From assembly GCA_946886925.1 (NCBI GenBank), contig CAMPJQ010000040.1, positions 1 to 11,431 on the forward strand: a stretch of DNA of 11,431 bases, in the 5' to 3' direction. Of this stretch, positions 1-11,431 are shown piece by piece. Both the position numbers and the translations under genes were made by a program. This stretch comes from an uncultured Terrimonas sp. GTDB taxonomy: Bacteria > Bacteroidota > Bacteroidia > Chitinophagales > Chitinophagaceae. The notes under the pieces are model-generated. The model did no database searches. It was not told the DNA's origin and saw only the letters and a program-made list of their open reading frames with translations. How positions within the stretch are numbered: position 1 is the first letter of the stretch; each line of letters begins with the position of its first letter.

Positions 1-1721
1 GCGCGTACGTGTTGCCTGGAGGATGCTGAAAGCCGTGCTGTTGATAAATTGCTCAGGGCTTTTATTATCAACATAATTTCTTCCACTGGCATTGAGTTGT
101 CCGTAACTACTGGCAAGCAGTGCATAGCTGCCTGCAGCCATTCCCAAACAAATACCGTCTCCAAAGCCGTCTAAGAACAAGGCGCCGGTTTCGGTGGCAA
201 AATGTATAAGATGTTCATCGGGTGTTTGCCAGTTGCTATCGGTTATCAATACAGCAGGATTACGAATATCTTTTTGCAACAGCTTCGTAAACATATGCCG
301 TACCGATTGCATTGCATTCTTATTGGTACTGCTCAGTGCAAGCACTACAGCAGGATCATTTTTTATTTTATCCAGTTTATCTATATCGAACGCATCTTTC
401 TCGTTAAAACAATCGAGCATTACAATATTTAATATGTCGCTTTTTTGTTGATGACCGGCGTTAAGATATTCCTCAAAAGCAAACAAAGGATAATACTTTT
501 CTTTATCCGTGCAATGCAGCCAGCGCTTTGCCGGAAGGATCACTTTTAAGGTTCCCGGTAATGCGAAAGGCAATTCATCACTGTCATAGAATATATAATC
601 AGCCGCAAGATCACTAATGTTCCATTTATCAAGTGCTTCATCATAGCTATATCCTATACGTTGTAAAACTTCCTTTGTAATGGCGCCTGCCTTGCTCATA
701 TCCGCTATAACCACGGGAACACTGTGCCCGCCGACATGATTAACCACAAAGGTTTCCCGCCGTTTATACTGGAAGGGGGAGTAGTTAGTGATAAGAGGTA
801 AGGAGTAAGGGGCAAGAGGTGGATGGGGAATGGTGAGTGACTCCGCAGGATAACGTTTTACAATATCACGGCATACCGGTATTTCAAACTCAGGATCTTC
901 GGTTAGGGATACCCGTATGGTGTCACCTATGCCGTCTTCCAGCAAAGTGCCGATGCCTATTGCAGATTTTATTCTTCCGTCTTCCCCGTCACCCGCTTCT
1001 GTTACGCCCAGGTGCAGCGGGTAACATTCCTTAAACTCGTCGGTCATTTGCCTTACCAGCAAACGGTAAGCCTGCACCATTACCTGCGGATTGCTCGACT
1101 TCATGCTGAGCACGATATTGTGAAAACTTTCATCGCGGGCGATCCGCAAAAATTCCATAGCGCTTTCCACCATGCCCATGGGCGTATCGCCATAGCGGCT
1201 CATGATGCGGTCGCTCAGCGAACCATGATTGGTTCCAATGCGCATAGCCGTTCCATATTCCCTGCAAATTTTCACCAATGGGGTAAACCGCTGCCTTATT
1301 CTTTCTATTTCGGGTATGCGCTATCGGTGTATTCAATAAATTCAAACTTCTTTTTATCAATATAATTGCCGGGGTTTACCCGCACCTTTTCAACAATACG
1401 CGCTGCAATTTCGGCTGCATTGGGCGTAAAATGAATATCGGCGATAAGCGGCGTATCGTACCCCCGTTTGCGGAGTTCATTTTTAATGTTGAGCAAATTT
1501 TCTGCTTCTCTTTTGCTGGGTGCAGTGATCCGAACCATTTCTGCGCCGGCTTCAATGCAACGAACAGACTGCTCCACCGTAGCCAGGGTATCCATCGTAT
1601 CGGTAGTGGTCATGGTTTGCACACGAATGGGATGAAAATTGCCCGTTAACAATCCCCCAATATTTACTTCCCTGGTTTTAAGCCTTTTATATTCAGTTAA
1701 GGATTCACAATACCACTGCAT
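1..1721 (-). CDS. ispG: 4-hydroxy-3-methylbut-2-enyl diphosphate synthase (IspG/GcpE), long Bacteroidota form; frameshifted and cut by window edge
   Basis: IspG makes HMBPP from methylerythritol cyclodiphosphate in the cytosolic MEP isoprenoid pathway, using a [4Fe-4S] cluster. The first 138 codons from ATG 1721 carry family motifs such as [26 protein letters not shown] and [12 protein letters not shown]. They end in a stop at 1305-1307. Homology resumes at once in the next frame from about 1311 ([55 protein letters not shown]) and stays open to base 1, giving about 575 visible residues. The last roughly 90 residues, including the cluster cysteines, lie outside the window. From about 900 down to 1 the frame encodes the inserted domain typical of Bacteroidota and plant IspG. 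I prefer ATG 1721 ([19 protein letters not shown]) over an upstream ATG at 1784, because a promoter box lies between them and family members start near YCESLT. The family and the frame break are certain; whether the break is real is not. Confidence 0.93.
770..842. repeat. Purine-rich low-complexity stretch inside the ispG insert domain
   Basis: The plus strand holds loosely tandem 7-8 bp units (taagaggt, aaggagt, aaggggc, aagaggt), followed by ggatggggaatggtgagtga. Read as ispG on the minus strand it stays open and encodes a proline/leucine-rich linker ([20 protein letters not shown]) between the core barrel and the inserted domain. It resembles simple AG-rich repeats seen between genes in this phylum, but here it lies within a gene. 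Confidence 0.5.
1305..1316 (-). other. Frameshift point within ispG
   Basis: On the minus strand the reading frame goes GCA TAC CCG AAA TAG, while the conserved protein continues as GAA ATA GAA AGA ATA AGG CAG (EIERIRQ) from 1311. One base is missing, most simply from the C run (GGG on the plus strand, 1312-1314). Compared with remembered homologues the segment is about one residue shorter still, so a four-base loss is also possible. Everything on both sides is intact coding sequence. Confidence 0.85.
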
Positions 1722-1748
1722 AATATAAGTATAAAAGAAAACTAAGGG

Positions 1749-1756
1749 CAAAGGTA
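1749..1756 (-). promoter_or_regulatory. -7 promoter box of ispG (TACCTTTG)
   Basis: A perfect match to the Bacteroidota -7 consensus TAnnTTTG, 28 bp upstream of the ATG at 1721. A start of transcription near 1742 would leave a leader of about 20 nt. I see no clear -33 TTTG at the usual spacing. Confidence 0.55.
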
Positions 1757-1783
1757 AACAAAACTGAGATGGCAGGGAGGGCA

Positions 1784-1835
1784 ATCAGCCATTAGCTATC
1801 AGTGAAACACTCACTGCTCATAGCTCAAGGCTGAT
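1784..1835. repeat. Long imperfect inverted repeat (hairpin) upstream of ispG
   Basis: The arms are ATCAGCC (1784-1790) with GGCTGAT (1829-1835), AGCTAT (1794-1799) with ATAGCT (1820-1825), and AGTGA (1801-1805) with TCACT (1811-1815). The loop is AACAC, with internal loops of att/caa and c/gctc. That is 18 base pairs in 52 nt. No T tract follows on either strand, so a simple terminator is not supported. The 'attagct'-like wording resembles low-complexity intergenic repeats of this phylum. Confidence 0.6.
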
Positions 1836-2294
1836 CTGAAAGCTTCCTTCGGATTTTAGGCTTTGAGAAGTTATCGGCCGCAACGGGTATCGAAGCACTT
1901 GTTTTGATCGCGGTGAAGTCAGATTTTCCTCCAACCCTTGTTCTTTTCCATTATAAACCTTGTATCTTTTCAGGATAGAAAAAGCCTTTTTATGCTTATT
2001 TCCAAAGCGGCCTCACCCTTCTGCAGCGGGGGCCGACAGCATTACGGATGTGGACTTGTATTAACCTTTTCAGGTTCCAAACGTTTATAAACTATACGAT
2101 AAAAGTACTACGACCCTTCCAGGTTCGAACAACGAATACTGAAGCATCTGTATCCACGGCAAACAAGTTGGATATTGTATTTCGCTTCGGATTGGACCTT
2201 TGACTTTTATTTGTTTCTTGTTATTTGCTTTTTGGTGTTTTGTATTTCATCTGATTTCGTCTTCCGGCTTTTGTCCGAATATCCGACAGGTACA
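1836..2294. other. Gene-free region of about 460 bp between ispG and the lipoprotein gene
   Basis: No reading frame here has a plausible start and protein-like composition; short open stretches on either strand look random. It holds short CAGGTTC-type palindromes (annotated separately), an imperfect GC-rich hairpin around 2008-2038 (GGCC...GGGGGCC), and a T-rich tract at 2200-2260. A GGTTCGAAC at 2122-2130 recalls a tRNA T-loop but has no flanking stem. No function can be assigned. Confidence 0.6.
2063..2126. repeat. Pair of short CAGGTTC-type palindromic repeats
   Basis: AACCTTTTCAGGTTC (2063-2077) and ACCCTTCCAGGTTC (2113-2126) are near-identical direct copies 49 bp apart. The first can fold as AACCT/AGGTT. 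A more diverged partial copy lies near 1957-1978 (aacctt...tcaggat). They resemble the AACCTG(A/T)CAGGTT palindromes common between genes in Bacteroidota. The copy number is low and the role unknown. Confidence 0.4.
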
Positions 2295-3089
2295 TCAATA
2301 TTCCACAGTGTACTCAGCCGTTTCCGGCCGGTTGAGCATATCGCTCAGCGTTGTTAAAAAGGTGAGCGTTTTTTTATCATCAGACAAAATGGTTTGGTTG
2401 CCCTTATATTTTTTTACCTTCCTGGGTAAAACAATAATCGTTTTATAATTCATATCTCCCATCATCATTGACATTTGCTGAAGCATTTGCATAGATGAAT
2501 CGTTCTGTATCTTGTTATTGAATAAATCTTTATTCACGAGTGTATTGGACAGCTTTCCCGGTGCGGCGGCAAAAGCAAATGCATCACGGGCGGGATTCAA
2601 AATATTTTTGTCTTTTGCTATCTCTTGCGGCACATCTTCCGCAGATCCACTGTCGCCAGGGCTCTTCAATTTATTTGATATACCCAATTTGTCTATTACC
2701 GACATGTAAGATGATTTGAGTTCCGGTAAATCTCCTATATGCCTGAAGGGAAAATTGAGAACGATAATTAATTCTTTTTCCGCTTCATCTACCCGCATCC
2801 GCAGGCTTCCATCTTTAAACATTTCTTTTTCCCTGGCGGAAAGCACGGTGGAAGTATCTACAAAGGATTTAAAGTAAACAGTTGAATCTTTTTTTTCCGG
2901 TATTTTAGAATCATCTTTTTTTTCCTGGCCAAACTGGTCCATGAGCTGCAGCATTTTGCTCATATCAAGGGTAAGCGTATAAATACCGCTGTTGTTTTTA
3001 TTGATCACAATTTTTTCTTCTGTGTCTAAACAGGAAGTTAAGAACACAAAAAGCACCAACGAAACAATAACGTATATTTTCTTTATCAT
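2295..3089 (-). CDS. Predicted lipoprotein of unknown function
   Basis: This 264-residue protein starts MIKKIYVIVSLVLFVFLTSC: a short basic N-terminus, a hydrophobic helix and a lipobox (LTSC) with the lipidated cysteine at residue 20, so it is exported and anchored in the envelope. The mature part begins with a charged stretch (LDTEEKIVINKNNSGIYTLTLDM), as in beta-rich lipoproteins, then has lysine/aspartate-rich and methionine-rich (QMLQQMSMMMGDM-like) segments. It has no catalytic motif I recognise. I chose ATG 3089 over ATG 3131 because it begins a clean signal peptide and because a promoter box lies between the two. It follows the FAH-family gene by 58 bp on the same strand. Export is well supported; the function is unknown. 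Confidence 0.85.
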   Translation of the reverse strand: MIKKIYVIVSLVLFVFLTSCLDTEEKIVINKNNSGIYTLTLDMSKMLQLMDQFGQEKKDDSKIPEKKDSTVYFKSFVDTSTVLSAREKEMFKDGSLRMRVDEAEKELIIVLNFPFRHIGDLPELKSSYMSVIDKLGISNKLKSPGDSGSAEDVPQEIAKDKNILNPARDAFAFAAAPGKLSNTLVNKDLFNNKIQNDSSMQMLQQMSMMMGDMNYKTIIVLPRKVKKYKGNQTILSDDKKTLTFLTTLSDMLNRPETAEYTVEY

Positions 3090-3107
3090 ATTAATAAATT
3101 GATATTG

Positions 3108-3115
3108 TAAAGGTA
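3108..3115 (-). promoter_or_regulatory. -7 promoter box of the lipoprotein gene (TACCTTTA)
   Basis: Seven of eight positions match TAnnTTTG, 19 bp upstream of ATG 3089 and inside the short gap after the FAH-family gene. The lipoprotein can therefore have its own promoter even if there is readthrough from upstream. Confidence 0.4.
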
Positions 3116-3147
3116 GAAAGATAGACAGCAATTGTATTACCGTTCTT

Positions 3148-4146
3148 CTATATTTTCTTCTCTTTTAAAATGCTCCAGTTTTCCTCCTCGGCAACAATCA
3201 AATTGCTAAGGCAGCCCAGGCAGCCTGCCTGCATTTCTATTGCATCACCTGCTTGCAGCCACTGCGCGTTATAAGCAGGATTGTTTTGTTTACCGGTTTG
3301 GTTCAGTTGAAAGAAACATCCACCATCCGGGGCTCCGCTCCCGATAATGTCGCCGGGATAGAGATCGGCTCCATAAGAAGCCTGTTCAATAAGCTCTGCA
3401 AAAGTCCAGGTCATATCACCCAAATTCCATTCACTCATCTGAACTCCATTTATATTGCACATCACAGGCAGGTTCCAGCTTTTCCCGATATGATTTTCCG
3501 GGGCGGGCATCTCAAACTGCTCCAGGTCATCAGGTGTTATCAGTACCGGTCCTGTTGCAGTTGAAAAACCTGCTCCGCCTGCTAGTGGGGAATTTACTCC
3601 CATTTGCAATTTACTTGCGCACATATCATTCATGATCATCACGCCGCCCACATATTCATCCGCATGTGCCGCGCGAATGTTCCTGCCATGCTTACAGATT
3701 ACAATGGCCACCCCGAATTGAAAATCTAAGTTTTCCAAATGATCGGGCAGGCAACGTATCTCTCCGGTACCTTGTATGCTGTGATGATTGCCGAAATGGA
3801 ATCCGGGGTATTGATCAAACTTCTGCGGTATGAACACATCACGGTTGCTACTGTCGGCAACAACGTTCCGGTAAAAGGAATGCGCACTCCTGTATGAGGT
3901 GGGAAAAGGAACAGGGGCCAATAATTGCACTGTATTGTATGGAATACCCCTGTTTTGCAGAAACCTCCCGGCTTTAACGCCTTCTTCAGCCCTTTTTGCC
4001 AACGGAAAAGCGTCTTCCCAGTAATTCAGGAACATACCAATGCTTCCCGGCAGATCGGGATGCAGCTCATCCATATTATATAAAAAGTCACCAATTAAAA
4101 GGGCCAACTGATCATTCGAATCGCGGAGGTAGGAAACCAATTGCAC
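3148..4146 (-). CDS. Fumarylacetoacetate hydrolase (FAH) family protein with altered metal site
   Basis: FAH-fold enzymes hydrolyse or decarboxylate beta-diketo acids at a divalent metal held by acidic residues. This 332-residue protein has the family layout: an N-terminal domain (to about 85), then ADEYVGGVMIMNDM, WTFAELIEQASYGADLYPGDIIGSGAPDGG split over residues 247-276, and a C-terminal GD.IE...GCLG.L.N segment. Where active relatives have DFELE (two glutamates binding metal) it reads DFQFG (residues 141-145). The catalytic-lysine loop (KGKDF in relatives) reads AGGAGF. The next acidic ligand, Asp174 of MIMND, is kept. I chose GTG 4146 (relatives start MKLVSYL; here VQLVSYL) over TTG 4167. 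It is divergent from the serine hydrolase gene. The fold is sure; ordinary catalytic activity is doubtful. Confidence 0.88.
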   Translation of the reverse strand: MQLVSYLRDSNDQLALLIGDFLYNMDELHPDLPGSIGMFLNYWEDAFPLAKRAEEGVKAGRFLQNRGIPYNTVQLLAPVPFPTSYRSAHSFYRNVVADSSNRDVFIPQKFDQYPGFHFGNHHSIQGTGEIRCLPDHLENLDFQFGVAIVICKHGRNIRAAHADEYVGGVMIMNDMCASKLQMGVNSPLAGGAGFSTATGPVLITPDDLEQFEMPAPENHIGKSWNLPVMCNINGVQMSEWNLGDMTWTFAELIEQASYGADLYPGDIIGSGAPDGGCFFQLNQTGKQNNPAYNAQWLQAGDAIEMQAGCLGCLSNLIVAEEENWSILKEKKI

Positions 4147-4184
4147 AGCTAAAATTTTAAACTGCAATATAACTGAATGTTTTG

Positions 4185-4192
4185 TACCTTTT
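4185..4192 (+). promoter_or_regulatory. Possible -7 box abutting the serine hydrolase start (TACCTTTT)
   Basis: Matches TAnnTTTG except the last base, ending five bases before ATG 4197. It lies in the 50 bp divergent gap between the FAH-family and serine hydrolase genes. If used, transcription would begin at or within the start region, giving a leaderless or nearly leaderless mRNA. Confidence 0.35.
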
Positions 4193-4196
4193 TTGT

Positions 4197-5450
4197 ATGA
4201 AAATGTTTCTGCTCTTTCTTACTCTATTTTCCACCACACAGCATATGAACGCACAGGTAAAAACAAACGCATGGCTTTCGCAGTTATTACGCAATAATGC
4301 TTCGGAACCGCTACTTCATGTATTAAACAATCCCAACAGTTTTCAGTACCAGTTGATCTATACACAGATCAACCGCGACCACAATAACAAACCTTCGTTT
4401 ACACATCATCATCTCCATGTTGATAGAAACCAGTATTTTAACCCCGCCTCTACTGTAAAAATGCCGTTGGCTTTCCTGGCATTGGAAAAGTTGAACAAAA
4501 TAAATAAACAGGGCGTAAACAAATTTACCCCAATGCTAACGGATAGTGCATACACCGGGCAAACAACTGTTATGGAAGATAGCAGCGCCGAAAACGGGTT
4601 GCCTTCTATTGCCCATTACATAAAAAAAATATTCTTAGTAAGCGATAACGATGCTTATAACCGGTTGTACGAATTCATCGGCCAAAAAACCATCAATGAG
4701 CGGCTCTGGCAAATGGGGTATAAAGATTTTCGCATTACCCGCCGCTTTGTTCGCGCCACGGAAGAGGAGAACCGTTACACCAATCCTGTACGGTTTGTTG
4801 ATGGCCCGGGAAAATTACTTTATAAACAATCTGCCGCTTACAATGATCTGAATTTTGATTTCAGTAAAAAGATCCTGGTAGGACAGGCGCATTATAACCG
4901 CGACGATAGTTTGGTTCATGCTCCTATGGAATTTACCACGCACAACAATGCGCCGCTCGAAGACCTGCAGCAGATACTGCAATCCGTTTTGTTTCCCGCT
5001 TCGGTGCCTGCACACCAAAGGTTCGGTCTTACCGGAGACGACTATAAGTTTTTATATGAATACATGTCGAAGCTACCGGCGGAAAGCAAATTTCCTAAAT
5101 ATGATACCACAGTATATTTTGACAGCTATACCAAGTTTTTTATGTTTAAATCCGGTAAAACCGAAATCCCGGAACATATAAGAGTATTCAATAAAACCGG
5201 CTGGAGCTATGGCTTTTTAACGGATATTGCTTACATAGTTGATTTTAAAAATAAAGTGGAGTTTATGCTAAGCGGTACTATTTATGTAAACCGCGACGGA
5301 ATACTTAATGATGATAAATATGAGTATGAAGAACTGGGGTATCCCTTTTTTAAAGAAGTAGGAAACATCATTTACCAGCATGAGTTGGAAAGAAAGCGGA
5401 AATTTGCTCCTGATCTTAAGGGCTTTGAAATGAAGTATCATAAACAGTGA
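4197..5450 (+). CDS. Secreted class A beta-lactamase-like serine hydrolase
   Basis: A 417-residue exported protein of the penicillin-recognising serine hydrolase superfamily. The N-terminus (MKMFLLFLTLFSTTQHMNAQ) is a signal peptide, probably cut near NA/QVK, so it acts in the periplasm or outside. All three active-site motifs are present: S85-T-V-K (nucleophile, in PASTVKMPLAFLAL), S149-D-N and K333-T-G. The omega-loop ExxLN that lets true class A beta-lactamases deacylate is not evident. The chain is also about 130 residues longer than a typical class A enzyme. A role on peptidoglycan peptides or another amide/ester is more likely than antibiotic resistance. I chose ATG 4197 over TTG 4182; ATG 4203 is also possible. 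The GH9 gene follows after 69 bp on the same strand without an obvious promoter box, so the two may be co-transcribed. Confidence 0.87.
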   Translation: MKMFLLFLTLFSTTQHMNAQVKTNAWLSQLLRNNASEPLLHVLNNPNSFQYQLIYTQINRDHNNKPSFTHHHLHVDRNQYFNPASTVKMPLAFLALEKLNKINKQGVNKFTPMLTDSAYTGQTTVMEDSSAENGLPSIAHYIKKIFLVSDNDAYNRLYEFIGQKTINERLWQMGYKDFRITRRFVRATEEENRYTNPVRFVDGPGKLLYKQSAAYNDLNFDFSKKILVGQAHYNRDDSLVHAPMEFTTHNNAPLEDLQQILQSVLFPASVPAHQRFGLTGDDYKFLYEYMSKLPAESKFPKYDTTVYFDSYTKFFMFKSGKTEIPEHIRVFNKTGWSYGFLTDIAYIVDFKNKVEFMLSGTIYVNRDGILNDDKYEYEELGYPFFKEVGNIIYQHELERKRKFAPDLKGFEMKYHKQ

Positions 5451-5519
5451 GTACCATAAAGTTCATCGAACCAAACGAAGATGATTTTCTGTTACACACA
5501 TCACACAAACATAAAAAAC

Positions 5520-7334
5520 ATGAATGTTACTGTTCGTATCATTGTATTTGCACTTTTAACACTCAGCAGCCAAATGACTTTTTCGCAATCTTCATGGATA
5601 CGCATTAACCAATTGGGTTATAAGCCGGAGGGCATTAAAGTAGCGGTATGGGGCGGTAAAGAAAAACCTTCGTTTAAGCAATGGCAATTGATAGATGCCG
5701 TTTCAAAAAAAGTGGTATTAAGCGCAAAGTCCGGCAAGTTTTCTGGCGCATACGGACCATTTAGTGAAACCTTACGTTTAAATTTCTCCGCATTCAAAAA
5801 TCCCGGGCGTTATTATTTGCAGGCAGGCAATACCCTATCGCCTGAATTTGAAATTGGCAACGATGTATACAAGGGCGCTGCCGATTTTTGCCTGTACTAC
5901 ATGCGGCAGCAACGCAATAATTTCAACCCGGTTACCAAAGACAGTTGTCATACGCAGGACGGATTTACGCTCTACGGTCCTATGCCCGATAGCACATTTA
6001 TTGATGTTAGTGGCGGCTGGCACGATGCAACCGATTACCTGCAATATGTAACCACTTCGGCCAATGCCACCTTTCATTTGCTCGCTGCGTACCGCGATTT
6101 CCCCGGGGCTTTTGGTGATGCCCACCAGGCCAATGGACTGGAAGGAGGAAACAATATACCCGATGTATTAGACGAAGCGCGCTGGGGGTTAGACTGGCTG
6201 TTAAAAATGCATCCGCGTGCAGACTGGATGTTTAACCAGGTAGCCGATGACCGGGATCATATCGGGATGCGTATGCCCGGAATGGATAGTCAGTACGGCC
6301 GTGGATACCAGCGGCCTGTTTATTTCGTAAGCGGAGAACCGCAAATACGGGGGAAATTTATGAACCATACAAAGGGCACTTCTTCAACAGCAGGTAAATT
6401 CAGCAGTGCTTTTTCGCTGGGATCTCTCGTTTTTAACTCGCTGGATGACGATTATTCAAAAACATTAAAAGAAAAGTCGCGCACCGCTTTCGCATTTGGA
6501 TTAAAGAAGCCGGGCAACACGCAAACCGCTTCAGTAGCATCACCTTATATTTATGCCGAAGACAACTGGATGGACGACATGGAACTGGCGGGTGCGATGC
6601 TTGGCGAGGGTGCTAAAGCTCAGTTAAGCGGAACCAATGGGATTGACTATGCTTATAGGCTGGCACAAAAAGAACCGCTAACCCCCTGGCTGGGTGCTGA
6701 TACCGCCAGTCATTACCAGTGGTATCCCTTTATTAATGTGGGTCATTACGAACTGATCAAAAAATTAAACGATAACAGAAGGGATACTGTAGCCGGATAT
6801 TACAAAAAGGGAATTGAACTGGTGTGGAACAAAGCAAAACAGAATGCGTTTTTACGCGGTGTGCCTTTTATATGGTGCAGCAATAACCTTACCACTTCAT
6901 TCGCGATACAGTGTTACTGGTACAGGCAGGCCACCGGTGATACAGGCTTTGAAGAACTGGAGCAGGCCAACTTCGACTGGTTGTTCGGCTGCAATCCCTG
7001 GGGAACGAGCATGGTATATGGTTTACCATCATGGGGCGATACACCCGCTGACCCGCATGCTTCATTTTTAAAAGTGGGCAATTTCCCGGTTAACGGCGGC
7101 ATTGTGGATGGACCTGTATATGGAAGTATTTTTGGAAATCTTATCGGGCTGCAGCTTACTAAACCCGACGAATATGCGCAGTTTCAAAGCCAGTTGGCAG
7201 TATATCACGATGATTCGGGTGATTACAGCACCAACGAGCCCACCATGGATGGAACAGCTTCATTGATATACCTGCTGGCAGCTAAAGAAAGTGGTGACTT
7301 TTTACCCGCAAAAATTTCTAAAAAAAAACGCTAA
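5520..7334 (+). CDS. Glycoside hydrolase family 9 protein with N-terminal Ig-like domain; frame ends at an A9 run
   Basis: A secreted glycosidase, 604 residues to this stop. The signal peptide (MNVTVRIIVFALLTLSSQMTFSQ) is followed by an Ig-like cellulase N-terminal domain (about 25-115, WIRINQLGYKPEGIKVAVW). An (alpha/alpha)6 GH9 barrel then runs from about 117 to 590. Catalytic elements are GGWHDATDYLQYV, with Asp169 and Asp172 as base/nucleophile-side residues; the GCNPWGTSMVYG and PHASF substrate loop; and DYSTNEPTMDG with Glu573 as the general acid. GH9 enzymes cut beta-1,4-glucans or, in some members, act as exo-beta-D-glucosaminidases; the substrate here is not determined. I chose ATG 5520 over ATG 5481 because it begins the signal peptide. 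The frame ends KISKKKR-stop directly after nine A's, and a deacetylase domain continues in the -1 frame. The natural product is probably one longer protein. Confidence 0.95.
   Translation: MNVTVRIIVFALLTLSSQMTFSQSSWIRINQLGYKPEGIKVAVWGGKEKPSFKQWQLIDAVSKKVVLSAKSGKFSGAYGPFSETLRLNFSAFKNPGRYYLQAGNTLSPEFEIGNDVYKGAADFCLYYMRQQRNNFNPVTKDSCHTQDGFTLYGPMPDSTFIDVSGGWHDATDYLQYVTTSANATFHLLAAYRDFPGAFGDAHQANGLEGGNNIPDVLDEARWGLDWLLKMHPRADWMFNQVADDRDHIGMRMPGMDSQYGRGYQRPVYFVSGEPQIRGKFMNHTKGTSSTAGKFSSAFSLGSLVFNSLDDDYSKTLKEKSRTAFAFGLKKPGNTQTASVASPYIYAEDNWMDDMELAGAMLGEGAKAQLSGTNGIDYAYRLAQKEPLTPWLGADTASHYQWYPFINVGHYELIKKLNDNRRDTVAGYYKKGIELVWNKAKQNAFLRGVPFIWCSNNLTTSFAIQCYWYRQATGDTGFEELEQANFDWLFGCNPWGTSMVYGLPSWGDTPADPHASFLKVGNFPVNGGIVDGPVYGSIFGNLIGLQLTKPDEYAQFQSQLAVYHDDSGDYSTNEPTMDGTASLIYLLAAKESGDFLPAKISKKKR
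7320..7328 (+). other. A9 slippery run at the GH9/deacetylase junction
   Basis: Nine consecutive A's precede CGC TAA of the GH9 frame. A one-base backward ribosome slip (A AAA AAA type), or insertion of one extra A by RNA polymerase, would carry ...KISKKK straight into TLTGNNQHKKFSYSHGG of the deacetylase frame. By eye I find no strong stem-loop just downstream. The same picture would arise from one A lost from an A10 run by mutation or by sequencing error. Confidence 0.75.
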
Positions 7335-8050
7335 CCGGCAATAACCAGCACAAAAAATTCAGCTACAGCCATGGTGGTATAATAAGGGGCGACACAAACA
7401 CCAAAGCCATCGCCATTGTTTTTACAGGAGATGAGTTTGGAGATGGCGGTAATTTTATTGCAAATACATTAAAAGAAAAAAAAGTAAAAGCATCCTTCTT
7501 TCTTACCGGGAACTTTTACCGGAATCCCGCCTTTAACAAGCTTATTAAACATTTAAAGAAAGATGGGCATTACCTGGGCAGTCATTCCGATAAGCATTTG
7601 CTGTATTGCGACTGGTACAAAAGAGACAGCTTATTGGTAACAAAAGAAGAATTTAGCTCCGACCTGCAGCATAGCTATACTGCCATGAACGGCTTTGGCA
7701 TAACAAAAAAAACTGCTTCCTTTTTTCTGCCTCCCTATGAATGGTACAATGACAGTATTACTGCATGGACACATCAATCCAGACTGCAGTTGATCAATTT
7801 TACACCTGGCACACTAAGCAATGCGGATTATACTACACCCAATATGAAAAACTACCGGTCATCGGATACCATATATCAATCCATAACCAGATATGAACAA
7901 TCGCATGGACTGAATGGATTCATTTTATTGCTGCATATTGGCACCGATGCCAAACGAACAGACAAAATGTATCATCGTTTAGGCAGGCTGGTGGATTATT
8001 TAAAACAAAAGCAATACCGCCTTGTGAGAGTAGATGAATTACTGAAATAA
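7322..8050 (+). CDS. Polysaccharide deacetylase (NodB-like) domain, lacking its own start; probable C-terminal half of the GH9 protein
   Basis: Carbohydrate esterase family 4-like domain that would remove N- or O-acetyl groups from a polysaccharide using a metal ion. The frame is open from 7322 and encodes IVFTGDEFGDGG, a variant of the TFDDG motif with its Asp codon at 7430-7432. VKASFFLTGNFYRNP and HYLGSHSDKHL follow, with the metal-binding HSxxH at 7583-7597, then FFLPPYEWYN and FILLLHIGTD. Between the preceding in-frame stop (7319-7321) and the HSxxH motif there is no ATG, GTG or TTG. The first is TTG 7598, which would leave out the metal site. Read as a -1 continuation of the GH9 frame, the joined product is 843 residues. 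I believe GH9-deacetylase fusions of about this size exist in Bacteroidota, but I cannot check this here. Confidence 0.88.
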   Translation, partial: KKTLTGNNQHKKFSYSHGGIIRGDTNTKAIAIVFTGDEFGDGGNFIANTLKEKKVKASFFLTGNFYRNPAFNKLIKHLKKDGHYLGSHSDKHLLYCDWYKRDSLLVTKEEFSSDLQHSYTAMNGFGITKKTASFFLPPYEWYNDSITAWTHQSRLQLINFTPGTLSNADYTTPNMKNYRSSDTIYQSITRYEQSHGLNGFILLLHIGTDAKRTDKMYHRLGRLVDYLKQKQYRLVRVDELLK

Positions 8051-8058
8051 CTATATAA

Positions 8059-8084
8059 CGGTTTCCCCCCTTTGGAGGGTACCG
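8059..8084 (+). terminator. GC-rich hairpin after the deacetylase stop, possible terminator
   Basis: CGGT (8059-8062) pairs with ACCG (8081-8084), and CCCCCC (8065-8070) with GGAGGG (8074-8079) around a TTT loop with one mismatch. It lies 8 bp after the stop codon, where a terminator would be expected, but has no U tract, so intrinsic termination is not assured. Similar ccccctttggaggg wording is a common intergenic motif in this phylum. Confidence 0.35.
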
Positions 8085-8116
8085 GCTGCTATGTAAAATG
8101 GATAGTTGATATTCTT

Positions 8117-8124
8117 TACCTTTA
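8117..8124 (+). promoter_or_regulatory. Possible -7 box overlapping the radical SAM gene start (TACCTTTA)
   Basis: Seven of eight positions match TAnnTTTG; the last A is the first base of ATG 8124. A transcript from it would begin near ATG 8130, implying a leaderless mRNA or that 8130 is the true start. A chance match cannot be excluded. Confidence 0.3.
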
Positions 8125-9158
8125 TGCTCATGCCTGGCATTCATATTCACGATAGCATCAATTTATTGTCCAAACTTAGCCTTCGCCGTGCCTGGAATGC
8201 CGGCAAGGTATTAAGCAGCTATTATATAAGTCGCTGGAGAAAAAAACCGGTGCAATGGGGCTATCCTATTTCTGTTTCTTTTGAACCTACTACATCGTGC
8301 AACCTGCGCTGTCCCGAATGCCCAAGCGGCTTAAGAAGTTTTACCCGGCCTACAGGCATGCTTAAAAAAGATTTCTTTAGTCAAACCATTGATGAAATAC
8401 ACAAAGAGCTCTTATATCTTATTTTTTATTTCCAGGGCGAACCTTATCTCAACCCCGGCTTCCTCGAAATGGTGCAGTACGCTTCACAAAAAAAAATTTA
8501 TACTGCAACATCAACCAATGCGCATTATCTAAATGATGCCAATGCCCGGAAAACTGTAGAAAGTGGTTTAGACAGGTTGATCATTTCCATTGATGGTACT
8601 ACACAGGAGGTATACCAGCAATACCGGCGCGGGGGCAAATTAAATAAAGTATTAGAAGGCGCTAAAAATATAGTGAAATGGAAAAAAGAACTGAAAAGCA
8701 AAACCCCGTTTATTATTTTTCAGTTCCTCGTAGTAAAGCCTAATGAACACCAGGTAGAAGAAGTAAAACAATTGGCAAAAGAAGTGGGTGTTGACGATAT
8801 ATGGTTTAAAACAGCCCAGGTATACGATTATGAAAATGACCCCAACAATTTAATTCCTTCTGTCGGTAAATTCAGCCGTTACAAAAAAGACAAGGACGGA
8901 CAATACAAAGTAAAAAATAAACTGAACAATCATTGCTGGAAATTGTGGCATGCCAATGTAATTACCTGGGATGGGCTGGTAGTTCCCTGCTGCTTCGATA
9001 AAGATGCCATGCACCGTCTGGGTAATTTAAAAATGCAGTCATTTAAAGAAATATGGCACAATGATAATTACAGGCAATTCCGCAGTGAGTTGATGACCAG
9101 CCGCAAGAATATTGACATTTGTGCCAATTGCAGCGAAGGAACAAAAGTTTGGAGCTGA
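8124..9158 (+). CDS. Radical SAM protein with C-terminal SPASM domain, function unknown
   Basis: A 344-residue cytosolic enzyme. The radical SAM cluster motif CxxxCxxC is Cys59, Cys63, Cys66 in TTSCNLRCPECPSG. It is followed by a barrel with FYFQGEPYLNP (the glycine/glutamate SAM-binding loop) and LIISIDGTTQEVYQQYRRGG. The C-terminal cysteines (Cys271, Cys289-Cys290, Cys333, Cys336, in CCFDKDAMHRLGN and CANCSEG) match a SPASM-type auxiliary iron-sulfur region. SPASM enzymes modify ribosomal peptides, activate sulfatases or act on small molecules. No precursor peptide, sulfatase or transporter is visible nearby, so the substrate is open. The first 50 residues are basic and lack known motifs. 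The start is ATG 8124 or ATG 8130; TTG 8106 is less likely. It is separated from its neighbours and probably transcribed alone or with the next gene. Confidence 0.9.
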   Translation: MLMPGIHIHDSINLLSKLSLRRAWNAGKVLSSYYISRWRKKPVQWGYPISVSFEPTTSCNLRCPECPSGLRSFTRPTGMLKKDFFSQTIDEIHKELLYLIFYFQGEPYLNPGFLEMVQYASQKKIYTATSTNAHYLNDANARKTVESGLDRLIISIDGTTQEVYQQYRRGGKLNKVLEGAKNIVKWKKELKSKTPFIIFQFLVVKPNEHQVEEVKQLAKEVGVDDIWFKTAQVYDYENDPNNLIPSVGKFSRYKKDKDGQYKVKNKLNNHCWKLWHANVITWDGLVVPCCFDKDAMHRLGNLKMQSFKEIWHNDNYRQFRSELMTSRKNIDICANCSEGTKVWS

Positions 9159-9241
9159 TCGTTAAAGAACCCATTTTCTCCATTTATTTTCCAGCCTTCT
9201 GCCCCGGTCGTCATTGCTAAAAATTAATTTGTTCATCACAT

Positions 9242-9862
9242 ATGCTTTTGCACGTACATCCTGTTGATCCGCAACCCCGCCAAATAAAAACCATTGTGGA
9301 ATGTTTGCAAAATGGCGGCATCATTATATACCCCACGGATACCATTTATGGTTTGGGCTGCGACATCTTTCAGCATAAAGCCATTGAGCGTATTGCACGC
9401 ATTAAGCATGTGGATCCGCAAAAAGCTAATTTTTCATTTGTGTGTTACGATCTCAGCGACCTGAGCATTTATACCAAAAGCATTGACACGCCTTTATACC
9501 GCATATTAAAAACCCATCTTCCCGGTCCCTACACATTTATATTACCATCAAGTAAGGAAGTGCCCAAAATATTGAAAAGTAAAAAAAACACGGTGGGTAT
9601 AAGGGTGCCGGAAAACAAAATTGCCAGAATGATCGTGCAGGAACTGGGGCATCCTATATTGAGTACAACCCTGCCCGGCGATATGGTGGAGGAGTATACC
9701 GATCCTGAAATCATTGAAGAGAATTTTAATAAACTGGTTGACATTGTTATAAACGGCGGCATCGGCGGCGTAACGCCATCTACTGTTGTTGATTGTACAG
9801 GGAAGGATCCTGTGCTCATCAGGAAAGGATTGGGGGAGTGGGTGGAAGAAGAACCATTCTGA
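9242..9862 (+). CDS. yciO: Sua5/YciO/YrdC family protein, YciO type
   Basis: This family uses threonine, bicarbonate and ATP to make threonylcarbamoyl-AMP for the tRNA t6A modification; the YciO branch has an uncertain role. The 206-residue protein has IYPTDTIYGLGC (residues 29-40), GPYTFILP, VGIRVPENKIARMIV, ILSTTLPGD and TPSTVVDCTG...LIRKG, so the whole single domain is present. Its length, the HPxxPQ N-terminus, KHVDPQKANFSFVCYDLSDLS and STTLPGD follow the YciO pattern. TsaC/Sua5 instead has a KxRP..KPL and STSAN pattern. The genome may therefore carry a separate TsaC elsewhere. The start is ATG 9242, with an AT-rich leader, a weak TTAATTTG box at 9224-9231 and no Shine-Dalgarno sequence. 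It converges on the TPR gene with a 35 bp gap. Confidence 0.88.
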   Translation: MLLHVHPVDPQPRQIKTIVECLQNGGIIIYPTDTIYGLGCDIFQHKAIERIARIKHVDPQKANFSFVCYDLSDLSIYTKSIDTPLYRILKTHLPGPYTFILPSSKEVPKILKSKKNTVGIRVPENKIARMIVQELGHPILSTTLPGDMVEEYTDPEIIEENFNKLVDIVINGGIGGVTPSTVVDCTGKDPVLIRKGLGEWVEEEPF

Positions 9863-9897
9863 AATGCAGGTGGCGATTTGATTTTGGCGCTATGTCT

Positions 9898-10632
9898 TCA
9901 ATCCAACTTCTTCAACCACTGTTTCGCTTCCCTACTTCCTTCTAAATCGCCTGCTACTATTTCGTGCAATAGCTTTTTTGCCGCATCTGTATCAGCAGGC
10001 TCGCCTCTTTTGACCAAAGCAATGGTCTGGTAAAACCTGCCTGGGTTGCTGTGTAAGGCAGTATCACTTGCCAGTGCAGAAAAATAAAAAAGTGCTTTAT
10101 CATATTGAGAAAGCCGGAGGGCAGCAATGCCGGCATATTTCTTTGCGTTGAAATTTGCGGAATCCTTCGCTGCAATGGCCTCGAACTGTAATAATGCTGC
10201 TGCCGGTTTGCCAGCATTAAATAATGCCGCTCCTTTTTGCAGGCTGTCTTGTCTGCTGCTCATTGTTATATCTAAAGTTTCCCAGTTTTGCTGCACATAG
10301 TCGTCCGCGAGTTGTTTCAGAGAAGTGCCTGAACTGAACAGTAGCCGTGACATTGCTATCACTGCCACTGTGCATGCAGCAATCGCATATTTCCACATTT
10401 GTCTAACCGGCTGTTTTTGGGGCAGGACTGTTTTTTGCTGTTCATATATCTCTCTGAACCTTTGTTTTTTCTGGATTTGAAGCTGTTCCTTAGTTACCTC
10501 GTGGGTAGAAATATAAAAGGACACATCTTCTGCAAATGATGCATCACTGATGATCCGTTGTTCAAACTGTTGCTTTTGCTCCGCCGTGTTTGTCCGGTTA
10601 AAATAATCATCAATATATTCCATACTATCCAT
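9898..10632 (-). CDS. Single-pass membrane protein with periplasmic TPRs, probable anti-sigma or sensor partner of the adjacent ECF sigma factor
   Basis: A 244-residue protein with three parts. The cytoplasmic N-terminal region of about 80 residues (EYIDDYFNRTNTAEQKQQFE) resembles the N-termini of Bacteroidota anti-sigma-like proteins. One membrane helix lies at about 80-101 (MWKYAIAACTVAVIAM). The outer part has tetratricopeptide-like helices at about 129-190 (LQKGAALFNAGKPAAALLQF; YAGIAALRLSQYDKALFYF). The layout suggests a signal passed from the periplasmic TPRs to a cytoplasmic sigma-binding region. I chose ATG 10632, one base after the sigma factor stop; ATG 10650 (overlapping by 17 bp) and ATG 10623 are alternatives. 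This spacing implies translational coupling. No classic zinc anti-sigma HxxxCxxC motif is seen, so the anti-sigma role rests on context. Confidence 0.85.
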   Translation of the reverse strand: MDSMEYIDDYFNRTNTAEQKQQFEQRIISDASFAEDVSFYISTHEVTKEQLQIQKKQRFREIYEQQKTVLPQKQPVRQMWKYAIAACTVAVIAMSRLLFSSGTSLKQLADDYVQQNWETLDITMSSRQDSLQKGAALFNAGKPAAALLQFEAIAAKDSANFNAKKYAGIAALRLSQYDKALFYFSALASDTALHSNPGRFYQTIALVKRGEPADTDAAKKLLHEIVAGDLEGSREAKQWLKKLD

Positions 10633-10633
10633 C

Positions 10634-11233
10634 TCAGCTTTTTTTAACATTATACAATAGCCGTAGTTTATCCAGGCAACGCAAACGGCTTGTTTTTACT
10701 ACATCTGCAGATCTGTATTCCAGTAGTACCGATACCTCCTTATCGTTGTATCCATCCGCAAACAATGTTAACAACTTCCGGCAGTTTTCTCCCAACTCCA
10801 GCAACCTGTTTTTCAACGCATCCCTATCCGTTCGTTCAATCAATTGCTGAACAATTGTTTTTGCCGGATCGGCCATTAACAGAAGCATATCCGAAACAGA
10901 TGAAGTGTGATGAACACTGTTCTTATTGGTCGTTTTCTTTCGCAAAAGGTCAACACATTTATTAATAAATATTCTATACAGGTAGGTTTTAAGTGCAGAC
11001 CTGTTTTCAAAATGTCCTTTCCTGATATTATCAATAGCATGCAAAATGGTATCCGAATATGCATCAAAGGATTCATCTTCCTGCAATTCATATTTTTTTA
11101 TCCCTTCCTTTATAAAATAGGCAAACCGATTAAATAACGCATCCTCAGCTTTTCTTTTAAGCAAATTGTTTTCCTGAAGATTCTGGATTAATTCTCCATC
11201 GGAAGAAACAATACGTGGGGCGTCGGAAGACAT
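10634..11233 (-). CDS. ECF-type RNA polymerase sigma-70 factor
   Basis: A 199-residue sigma factor with only regions 2 and 4, as in the extracytoplasmic-function group. Region 2 spans about 30-100 (DAYSDTILHAIDNIRKGHFE; LKTYLYRIFINKCVDLLRKK), binding core polymerase and melting the -10. A linker of about 35 residues follows. Region 4 spans about 135-192 (LLELGENCRKLLTLFADGYN then DKEVSVLLEYRS..VVKTSRLRCLDKLR), with the helix-turn-helix that reads the -35. The start is ATG 11233 (MSSDAPRIVSSDG). It is followed immediately by the membrane TPR gene, a pairing that usually means the partner controls sigma activity. Its target promoters are not identifiable here. Confidence 0.93.
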   Translation of the reverse strand: MSSDAPRIVSSDGELIQNLQENNLLKRKAEDALFNRFAYFIKEGIKKYELQEDESFDAYSDTILHAIDNIRKGHFENRSALKTYLYRIFINKCVDLLRKKTTNKNSVHHTSSVSDMLLLMADPAKTIVQQLIERTDRDALKNRLLELGENCRKLLTLFADGYNDKEVSVLLEYRSADVVKTSRLRCLDKLRLLYNVKKS

Positions 11234-11251
11234 GATATGTAGTGTGTTTCA

Positions 11252-11259
11252 GAAAGATA
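11252..11259 (-). promoter_or_regulatory. -7 promoter box of the sigma/TPR operon (TATCTTTC)
   Basis: Seven of eight positions match TAnnTTTG, 19 bp upstream of ATG 11233, the same distance as for the lipoprotein gene. A T-rich tract lies about 19-25 bp further upstream, where the -33 TTTG element is expected. This looks like a housekeeping promoter rather than self-activation by the ECF factor. Confidence 0.45.
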
Positions 11260-11320
11260 ATAAAAATAGCATGAAAAAAAGTGGTTTTTTGTTTCCTGTC
11301 CTTTTTCGCATTACGACAAA

Positions 11321-11351
11321 GTGATAAAGGCTTAAAACTGCCTTTATTCAC
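11321..11351. repeat. Inverted repeat upstream of the sigma operon
   Basis: GTGATAAAGGC (11321-11331) and GCCTTTATTCAC (11340-11351) pair over 11 bp with one bulged T and an 8-nt loop. A perfect 10-bp palindrome, GCAAGCTTGC, follows at 11354-11363. On the minus strand only a short TTTG follows the stem, so it may be a weak terminator for a gene beyond the right edge, or an operator. No gene is visible in 11234-11431. Confidence 0.5.
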
Positions 11352-11431
11352 CGGCAAGCTTGCAAAGCAATTTTAATAATCCTTTTTTCTTCGACAAACC
11401 TTACTGATCTGTTTGATGATGAATAATTAAG

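Follow-up and report, generated by a model that had tools for sequence, protein, structure and literature searches.

Can a single bacterial gene give both a glycosidase and a longer, two-enzyme protein by slipping on a run of nine A's? The question is raised by an 11,431-nucleotide stretch of DNA from an uncultured Terrimonas sp. of the Chitinophagaceae (assembly GCA_946886925.1, contig CAMPJQ010000040.1, positions 1 to 11,431), hereafter the window. In it, a gene for a glycoside hydrolase of family 9 (GH9) stops just past nine A's (A9), and an intact polysaccharide deacetylase (PDA) domain follows in the -1 frame. Comparison with related loci leads us to favor, with a probability of roughly 0.86, one gene in which programmed slippage would yield GH9 alone and a GH9-PDA fusion. 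The features involved are listed below; L001-L004 are the loci of the four nearest genomes compared.

5520..7334, plus strand: 0 frame, encoding a GH9 glycoside hydrolase with the Pfam domains CelD_N and Glyco_hydro_9; product 1, GH9 alone, 604 residues
5520..5588, plus strand: probable Sec signal peptide of some 23 residues, from a hydrophobic N-terminus read by eye
7320..7328, plus strand: candidate slip site A9, three 0-frame AAA codons; same run and phase in L001-L004
7332..7334, plus strand: 0-frame stop TAA, one codon past A9; TAA, TAG, TAA, and TGA in L001-L004
7322..8050, plus strand: -1 frame with linker and PDA domain (PF01522); motifs VFTGDE, HSDKH, PPYEWYN, and LLHIG

Two overlapping frames at one junction

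The junction reads TCT AAA AAA AAA CGC TAA, and relative to the GH9 frame the A9 is in phase 0. A TAA immediately precedes the start of the -1 frame at 7322, and that frame runs to its stop at 8048-8050. Each carries its own Pfam domain: Glyco_hydro_9 scores 215.9 bits in the GH9 frame (cut-off 27.7), and Polysacc_deac_1 scores 48.3 bits in the -1 frame (cut-off 23.1; 1.2e-12). This bears out an earlier note, made from the letters alone, that the two domains are joined through the A9 in the -1 frame. A single sense codon (CGC), and not two codons as in the note, separates the run from the GH9 stop. Its two further claims agree with what we found: the -1 frame has no ATG, GTG, or TTG upstream of HSDKH (the earliest start codon is a TTG at 7598, within the PDA domain), and a slip gives a joined protein of 603 + 240 = 843 residues.

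The putative deacetylase has the HSDKH motif, and profile and metal-site motifs together place it in the CE4/NodB family. Sequence matches in the PDB (3x17 and 2j13) are relatives of the GH9 (CelD_N) and CE4/NodB-type domains. The putative Sec signal at 5520..5588 is likely the only secretion signal for either product.

The frame break is shared by the nearest genomes

In all four nearest genomes (L001-L004; 90, 89, 80, and 75% identity) the A9, its phase, and the break recur: NNT AAA AAA AAA CNN is followed by a stop, for which three different codons are used, and PDA lies at -1. Within the genus of L001 the gene occurs in nine of 12 genomes, split in L001-L004 and fused in five. The length of the junction A9 is kept in 4/4 relatives, compared with 2/17 aligned positions for the other A8-A9 runs of the window (Fisher p 0.0025, ignoring kinship between relatives). 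One of these control runs, an A9 at 8488-8496 in a radical SAM/SPASM gene (8106-9158), entails no frame change and is interrupted in 3/3 aligned relatives. Because the same A9, phase, and break recur in all four genomes while control runs are seldom kept, we count the break as more than chance, and by these alignments it is confirmed as more than a lone sequencing error.

Split and fused genes among relatives

A protein search with the joined 843-residue product scored at least 7999 candidates, at least 7924 of them at E <= 0.001. Among the best 120 listed, 117 are continuous and at least 759 residues long. Two others, P0022 (91% identity, 605 residues) and P0064 (88%, 608 residues), stop after a KKK tail as the window does, and P0007 (81%, 746 residues) is continuous with a shortened PDA. 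The check proposed in the earlier note, whether relatives are continuous fusions that keep an A8-A10 run, thus came out positive, as fused L005 and L057 (A9) and L019 (A8) keep the run in their linkers.

At the DNA level we kept the best 80 of 155 related loci from a genome scan and added further genomes from the family (394 searched, 161 strong matches), the order (396), and the relatives of genome G007 (197), with some chosen individually; 41 regions were fetched. The census comprises 124 of 156 rows after duplicate removal and 33 fresh rows of 62 loci, 157 in total, still with some near-duplicates (L005/L150) and contig fragments among them. These 157 GH9 loci fall into 82 fused, 23 split at -1, 48 (41 + 7) in which no PDA was detected, three of them (L107, L226, and L232) running off the contig before a stop, and 4 otherwise broken. 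Every split is at -1 (23/23). Two loci are at +1: in L048 the PDA starts 529 nt past the GH9 stop as a separate gene, and in L080 the break lies within the PDA. A same-frame stop occurs in L075 and L134. Both anchors were found in 70 of 79 PDA-bearing loci. No GH9 relatives were found in viral contigs.

In some GH9 genes the match extends past TAG codons that lie in frame: one in L025 (which equals L108), two in L144, and one in L075. In the window, a PF13354 beta-lactamase-fold protein is encoded immediately upstream of GH9 (4182-5450, plus strand).

Two designs of split gene

The split loci include two designs. Eleven have a short run (L007, L009, L020, L024, L066, L092, L118, L152, L182, L207, and L211), with A AAA AAG or A AAA AAA as the slip site zero or one codon before the GH9 stop. 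Ten have a long run: A9 in the window and L001-L004, A9 then G in L100, L140, and L154, A10 then G in L133, and A10 in L215. A hairpin of the form GCCTCC-loop-GGAGGC lies exactly 5 nt past the slip codon in 10/11 short-run loci, all except L066, and in 0/10 long-run loci, where L154 has a weaker stem only (Fisher 3.4e-5, or 3.5e-4 counting that stem; kin loci are not independent). One short-run locus, L182, was found by a pattern that requires the 5-nt spacing; the others were not. Folds of eight short-run loci reach -12.7 to -16.2 kcal/mol, and stems were also seen in L207 and L211. A Shine-Dalgarno (SD)-like GGAGG stands 17-22 nt upstream of the run in 10/10 hairpin-type loci and at about the corresponding place in 4/52 fused linkers; among the long-run loci it is absent (0/10), L154 having just GGAG. 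Heptamer, close hairpin, and SD-like site thus occur together in 10/11 short-run loci.

The window has neither flanking element. Its best downstream fold (-4.7 kcal/mol, z 0.16) is not that of a stem-loop stimulator, the folds of the window and L001-L004 together have z from -0.42 to 0.69, and no SD-like stimulator lies within 24 nt upstream of its A9. A slippery run ends at most one codon from the GH9 stop in 20/23 splits and in 3/41 GH9-only genes, as counted by eye (Fisher 1.3e-10, with kin loci not independent and one GH9-only case lacking a stop on its contig).

Predictions were fixed before new genomes were added. The three new splits (L207, L211, and L215) are all at -1 and all follow the hairpin rule, in that the short-run loci have the hairpin and the long-run locus does not, and in two of the three the slip lies, as predicted, within two codons of the stop. 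A scan for the heptamer-hairpin pattern gave 21 matches in 20/394 genomes, and 20 of these matches were read as loci. In seven of the 20, the -1 frame is open and an upstream frame of about 500 residues or more ends at most 10 nt from the slip; all seven are GH9-PDA. The cassette as a multi-gene device was rejected, as the other 13/20 loci lack that layout and no second gene with exactly this pattern was found in the 394 genomes.

Palindromes occur elsewhere in and around this family. The stop region of the GH9-only gene L120 reads A AAA AAG AAA TAG, followed by a GTTGCC/GGGCAAC palindrome with no downstream deacetylase found; it might be what is left of a split gene, or else a terminator. Linkers of fused loci (for example L012, L013, L014, L018, L021, L023, L042, L046, and L231) contain palindrome-like stretches such as CCCTCTAAATCTCCC...GGGGAGACTT, which look like interspersed repeats inserted in frame. 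Since fused kin carry other palindromes in the same linker, the frameshift hairpin may have arisen from such a repeat. Outside the GH9 layout, AAAAAAAAGAAGGCCTCCGTTAACGGAGGCCTTATACTTAGTAAACCCAATTTGC is near-identical in L157, L158, and L159 (genomes G101, G272, and G176), perhaps as a mobile or regulatory element.

The lysine tRNAs of the hosts were also compared. CUU tRNA-Lys is present in 2/9 hosts of A_AAA_AAG and 6/8 long-run hosts (p 0.057, or 0.27 with the window clade counted once), and G001-G004, the genomes of the window's relatives, carry both lysine tRNAs. CUU tRNA-Lys loci were found by a loose pattern (n = 15), and ARAGORN confirmed 10/10 of those submitted. A clean split between the designs was rejected, because the looser pattern also found CUU tRNA-Lys in G006, G008, G161, and G171.

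Selection and phylogeny

The PDA region has dN/dS of 0.060-0.136 in 6/10 split pairs (dS 0.5 to 2.8; the other four pairs are saturated) and 0.061-0.106 in four fused pairs. By this measure, the PDA of split pairs is under purifying selection. No ATG, GTG, or TTG precedes the first domain motif in the -1 frame of 12/23 splits, the window included.

The GH9 tree groups the window with L001-L004 in a single clade (98*). In a GH9 + PDA tree of 98 of the 105 PDA-bearing rows (seven were too short, identical, or otherwise dropped), the node of the four nearest is starred and that of the five-row clade with the window is not. Split and fused forms are interleaved, with about 14 changes of state once the two odd rows L056 and L143 are set aside. 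If odd rows count as not fused, the well-supported branches alone require the label fused to change 11 times; these change counts do not separate gain from loss. Several fused sisters keep the run: L005 and L057 (A9), L019 (A8), L064 (A9, sister of split L140), and L194 (A9, closest to split L133). Stops in other frames lie 4-45 nt past the run in L005, L057, L019, and L064. In these sisters a switch of default product seems to have left the slip site in place; the contrasts are L140 with L064, L133 with L194, and the window clade with L005, L057, and L019.

Proposed programmed slippage and its alternatives

Under programmed slippage, standard decoding would stop past the A9 and give a secreted GH9 enzyme, and slippage at the run would shift some transcripts or ribosomes to the -1 frame, giving a secreted GH9-deacetylase fusion. 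We infer both that the two products are made and the route by which they arise. For the window we lean towards RNA polymerase slippage that adds one A, given a run of nine A's with neither a strong hairpin nor a GGAGG beside it. The competing route, a tandem -1 slip of ribosomes on A AAA AAA, is the less probable one, though it deserves serious weight: an in-frame heptamer of the X_XXY_YYZ form lies within the A9 with the 0-frame stop one codon on, the short-run relatives look clearly ribosomal, and A_AAA heptamers are functional in Escherichia coli (PMC4066793, PMC5009743, in part). Against it stand the lack of a stable downstream stem in the window and L001-L004 and the missing GGAGG. For relatives with A AAA AAG or A AAA AAA together with hairpin and GGAGG, the ribosomal route is most likely.

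Three other explanations dispense with programmed slippage. Decay of the deacetylase, with fusions repeatedly broken by indels in A-rich linkers and GH9 alone sufficing, would fit the interleaving of forms on the tree, and because 48/157 loci show no PDA (with the three contig-end cases among them), its loss appears to be tolerated. Such decay is nonetheless improbable in view of the low PDA dN/dS of split pairs at dS 0.5 to 2.8, the 23/23 splits at -1, and the constant spacing within the cassette of hairpin and GGAGG; the dN/dS and the one-sided direction led us to reject it. Translation of the deacetylase as a separate protein by re-initiation has a possible start in some splits, as in L211, where an ATG overlaps the stop (TAATG). 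We rate it lower still, given that more than half of the splits, the window among them, offer no start before the first motif, that 82 relatives are continuous fusions, and that a stand-alone PDA would probably lack a signal peptide. The least credible account is a homopolymer error of sequencing or assembly, even though the window sequence is evidently imperfect: its ispG/gcpE gene (1-1784, minus strand) is frame-broken near 1280-1310, where no A run occurs, into an N-terminal piece (1305-1784) and a C-terminal piece (1-1278). That break is private, through sequence error or a private mutation, as ispG is continuous in the four nearest genomes (open frames of 697, 690, 697, and 708 residues), the very genomes that share the GH9/PDA break. 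The split is also found in records that are not metagenome-assembled genomes (Agriterribacter humi YJ03, L001; Chitinophagaceae bacterium IBVUCB2, L020) and in the one-contig-scale assemblies G326 and G169. With L001-L004 sharing the break and ispG intact there as a control, we discarded sequencing error as its cause.

Of the two options in the earlier note, a gene with two products or a fusion damaged by the loss of one base, the former is favored, because the break is shared and always puts the junction at -1, purifying selection acts on the PDA, and a canonical ribosomal frameshift cassette is present there in other split relatives. Several observations weigh against programmed slippage. 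In addition to the private flaw in ispG, retention of the A9 as AAA codons carries little weight by itself, being less striking when judged from codon usage (f^15 = 0.011, tree ignored). L143 is split at -1 without any A run, the split of L056 falls at an A9 within the PDA, the A10 of L215 sits nine codons ahead of its stop, and L066 has A AAA AAG and no cassette hairpin. Lysine-rich tails with heptamers are present in three GH9-only genes without PDA (L120, L125, and L137), and A-runs are frequent in fused linkers (26/52). The hairpins have modest z-scores against shuffles (-0.55 to -2.62), and their stem is invariant, hence without covariation support. The Fisher tests treat related loci as independent, and the lysine-tRNA contrast is a trend only.

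More tentatively, and with slightly less than even confidence, we suggest that selection acts on the output of two products and not on the route, and that this output is written in several interchangeable ways: GH9 by default with a ribosomal -1 slip, GH9 by default with A9-A10 slippage, or the fusion by default with an A9 and nearby stops in other frames. If so, the family would be a natural experiment on the gain, loss, and exchange of programmed slippage, run in bacteria whose ribosomes mostly ignore SD sites.

Comparison with known systems

To our knowledge, programmed frameshifting in cellular bacterial genes has been well studied in few cases. The GH9-PDA family provides a single junction in many natural forms among culturable relatives, and the split loci include those of the named isolates or strains Agriterribacter humi YJ03, Chitinophagaceae bacterium IBVUCB2, and Olivibacter sitiensis. 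It also carries a warning, in that slip-joined GH9-PDA genes get annotated as GH9-only or broken. We found no literature report of a slip-joined GH9 or deacetylase, and none that brings together GH9, polysaccharide deacetylase, and frameshift. The words "deacetylase" and "cellulase" are absent from the main texts of PMC3711429 and PMC4066793 and from part of PMC5009743, and clusters listed only in the supplements may include such genes.

The domain families themselves are known from GH9 endoglucanases with CelD_N and from CE4/NodB-type deacetylases (Pfam; PDB 3x17 and 2j13); what differs is that the window joins GH9 to PDA, and that the join would depend on a slip. An archaeal alpha-L-fucosidase is likewise a glycosidase whose full product requires -1 frameshifting, as described in part of PMC8037382, but it is a different, archaeal glycosidase to which no second catalytic domain is added.

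The short-run relatives resemble E. coli dnaX, where -1 ribosomal frameshifting takes place on A_AAA_AAG with an upstream SD sequence and a 3' hairpin (PMC5009743, PMC4066793, in part): they have A AAA AAR, a GGAGG 17-22 nt upstream, and a GC stem 5 nt after. Unlike in E. coli, the frameshift would lengthen, not shorten, the GH9 product, and the window itself has no hairpin or GGAGG. SD-like sites are unexpected in Bacteroidia because the anti-SD of their ribosomes is occluded, although prfB frameshifting with AGGAGG is still found in 523/726 genomes (PMC8710568, in part). The family allows one to ask whether SD-like stimulators act on Bacteroidota ribosomes with an occluded anti-SD.

The comparison of the window with Thermus thermophilus dnaX, already drawn in the earlier note, is apt; all ten long-run loci resemble it in lacking the cassette. 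In Thermus, transcriptional slippage occurs on nine A's, and RNA polymerase slippage is efficient at nine A's or T's (PMC1088944, PMC5009743, in part); the Thermus route is further related to its two lysine tRNAs (part of PMC5009743). The window is similar in having an A9 in the sense strand (at least about nine A/T at the junction, with run and frame change conserved in L001-L004), no need of a hairpin, and two predicted products per gene. The fused relatives with A8-A9 (L005, L057, L064, and L019) are alike as well in their nearby other-frame stops. It differs in that the longer product is the default in Thermus and GH9 alone would be the default here, and in that the Thermus gene encodes a polymerase subunit, the window a putative secreted glycosidase-deacetylase. 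Both classic dnaX solutions, ribosomal and transcriptional, would stand side by side in one gene family.

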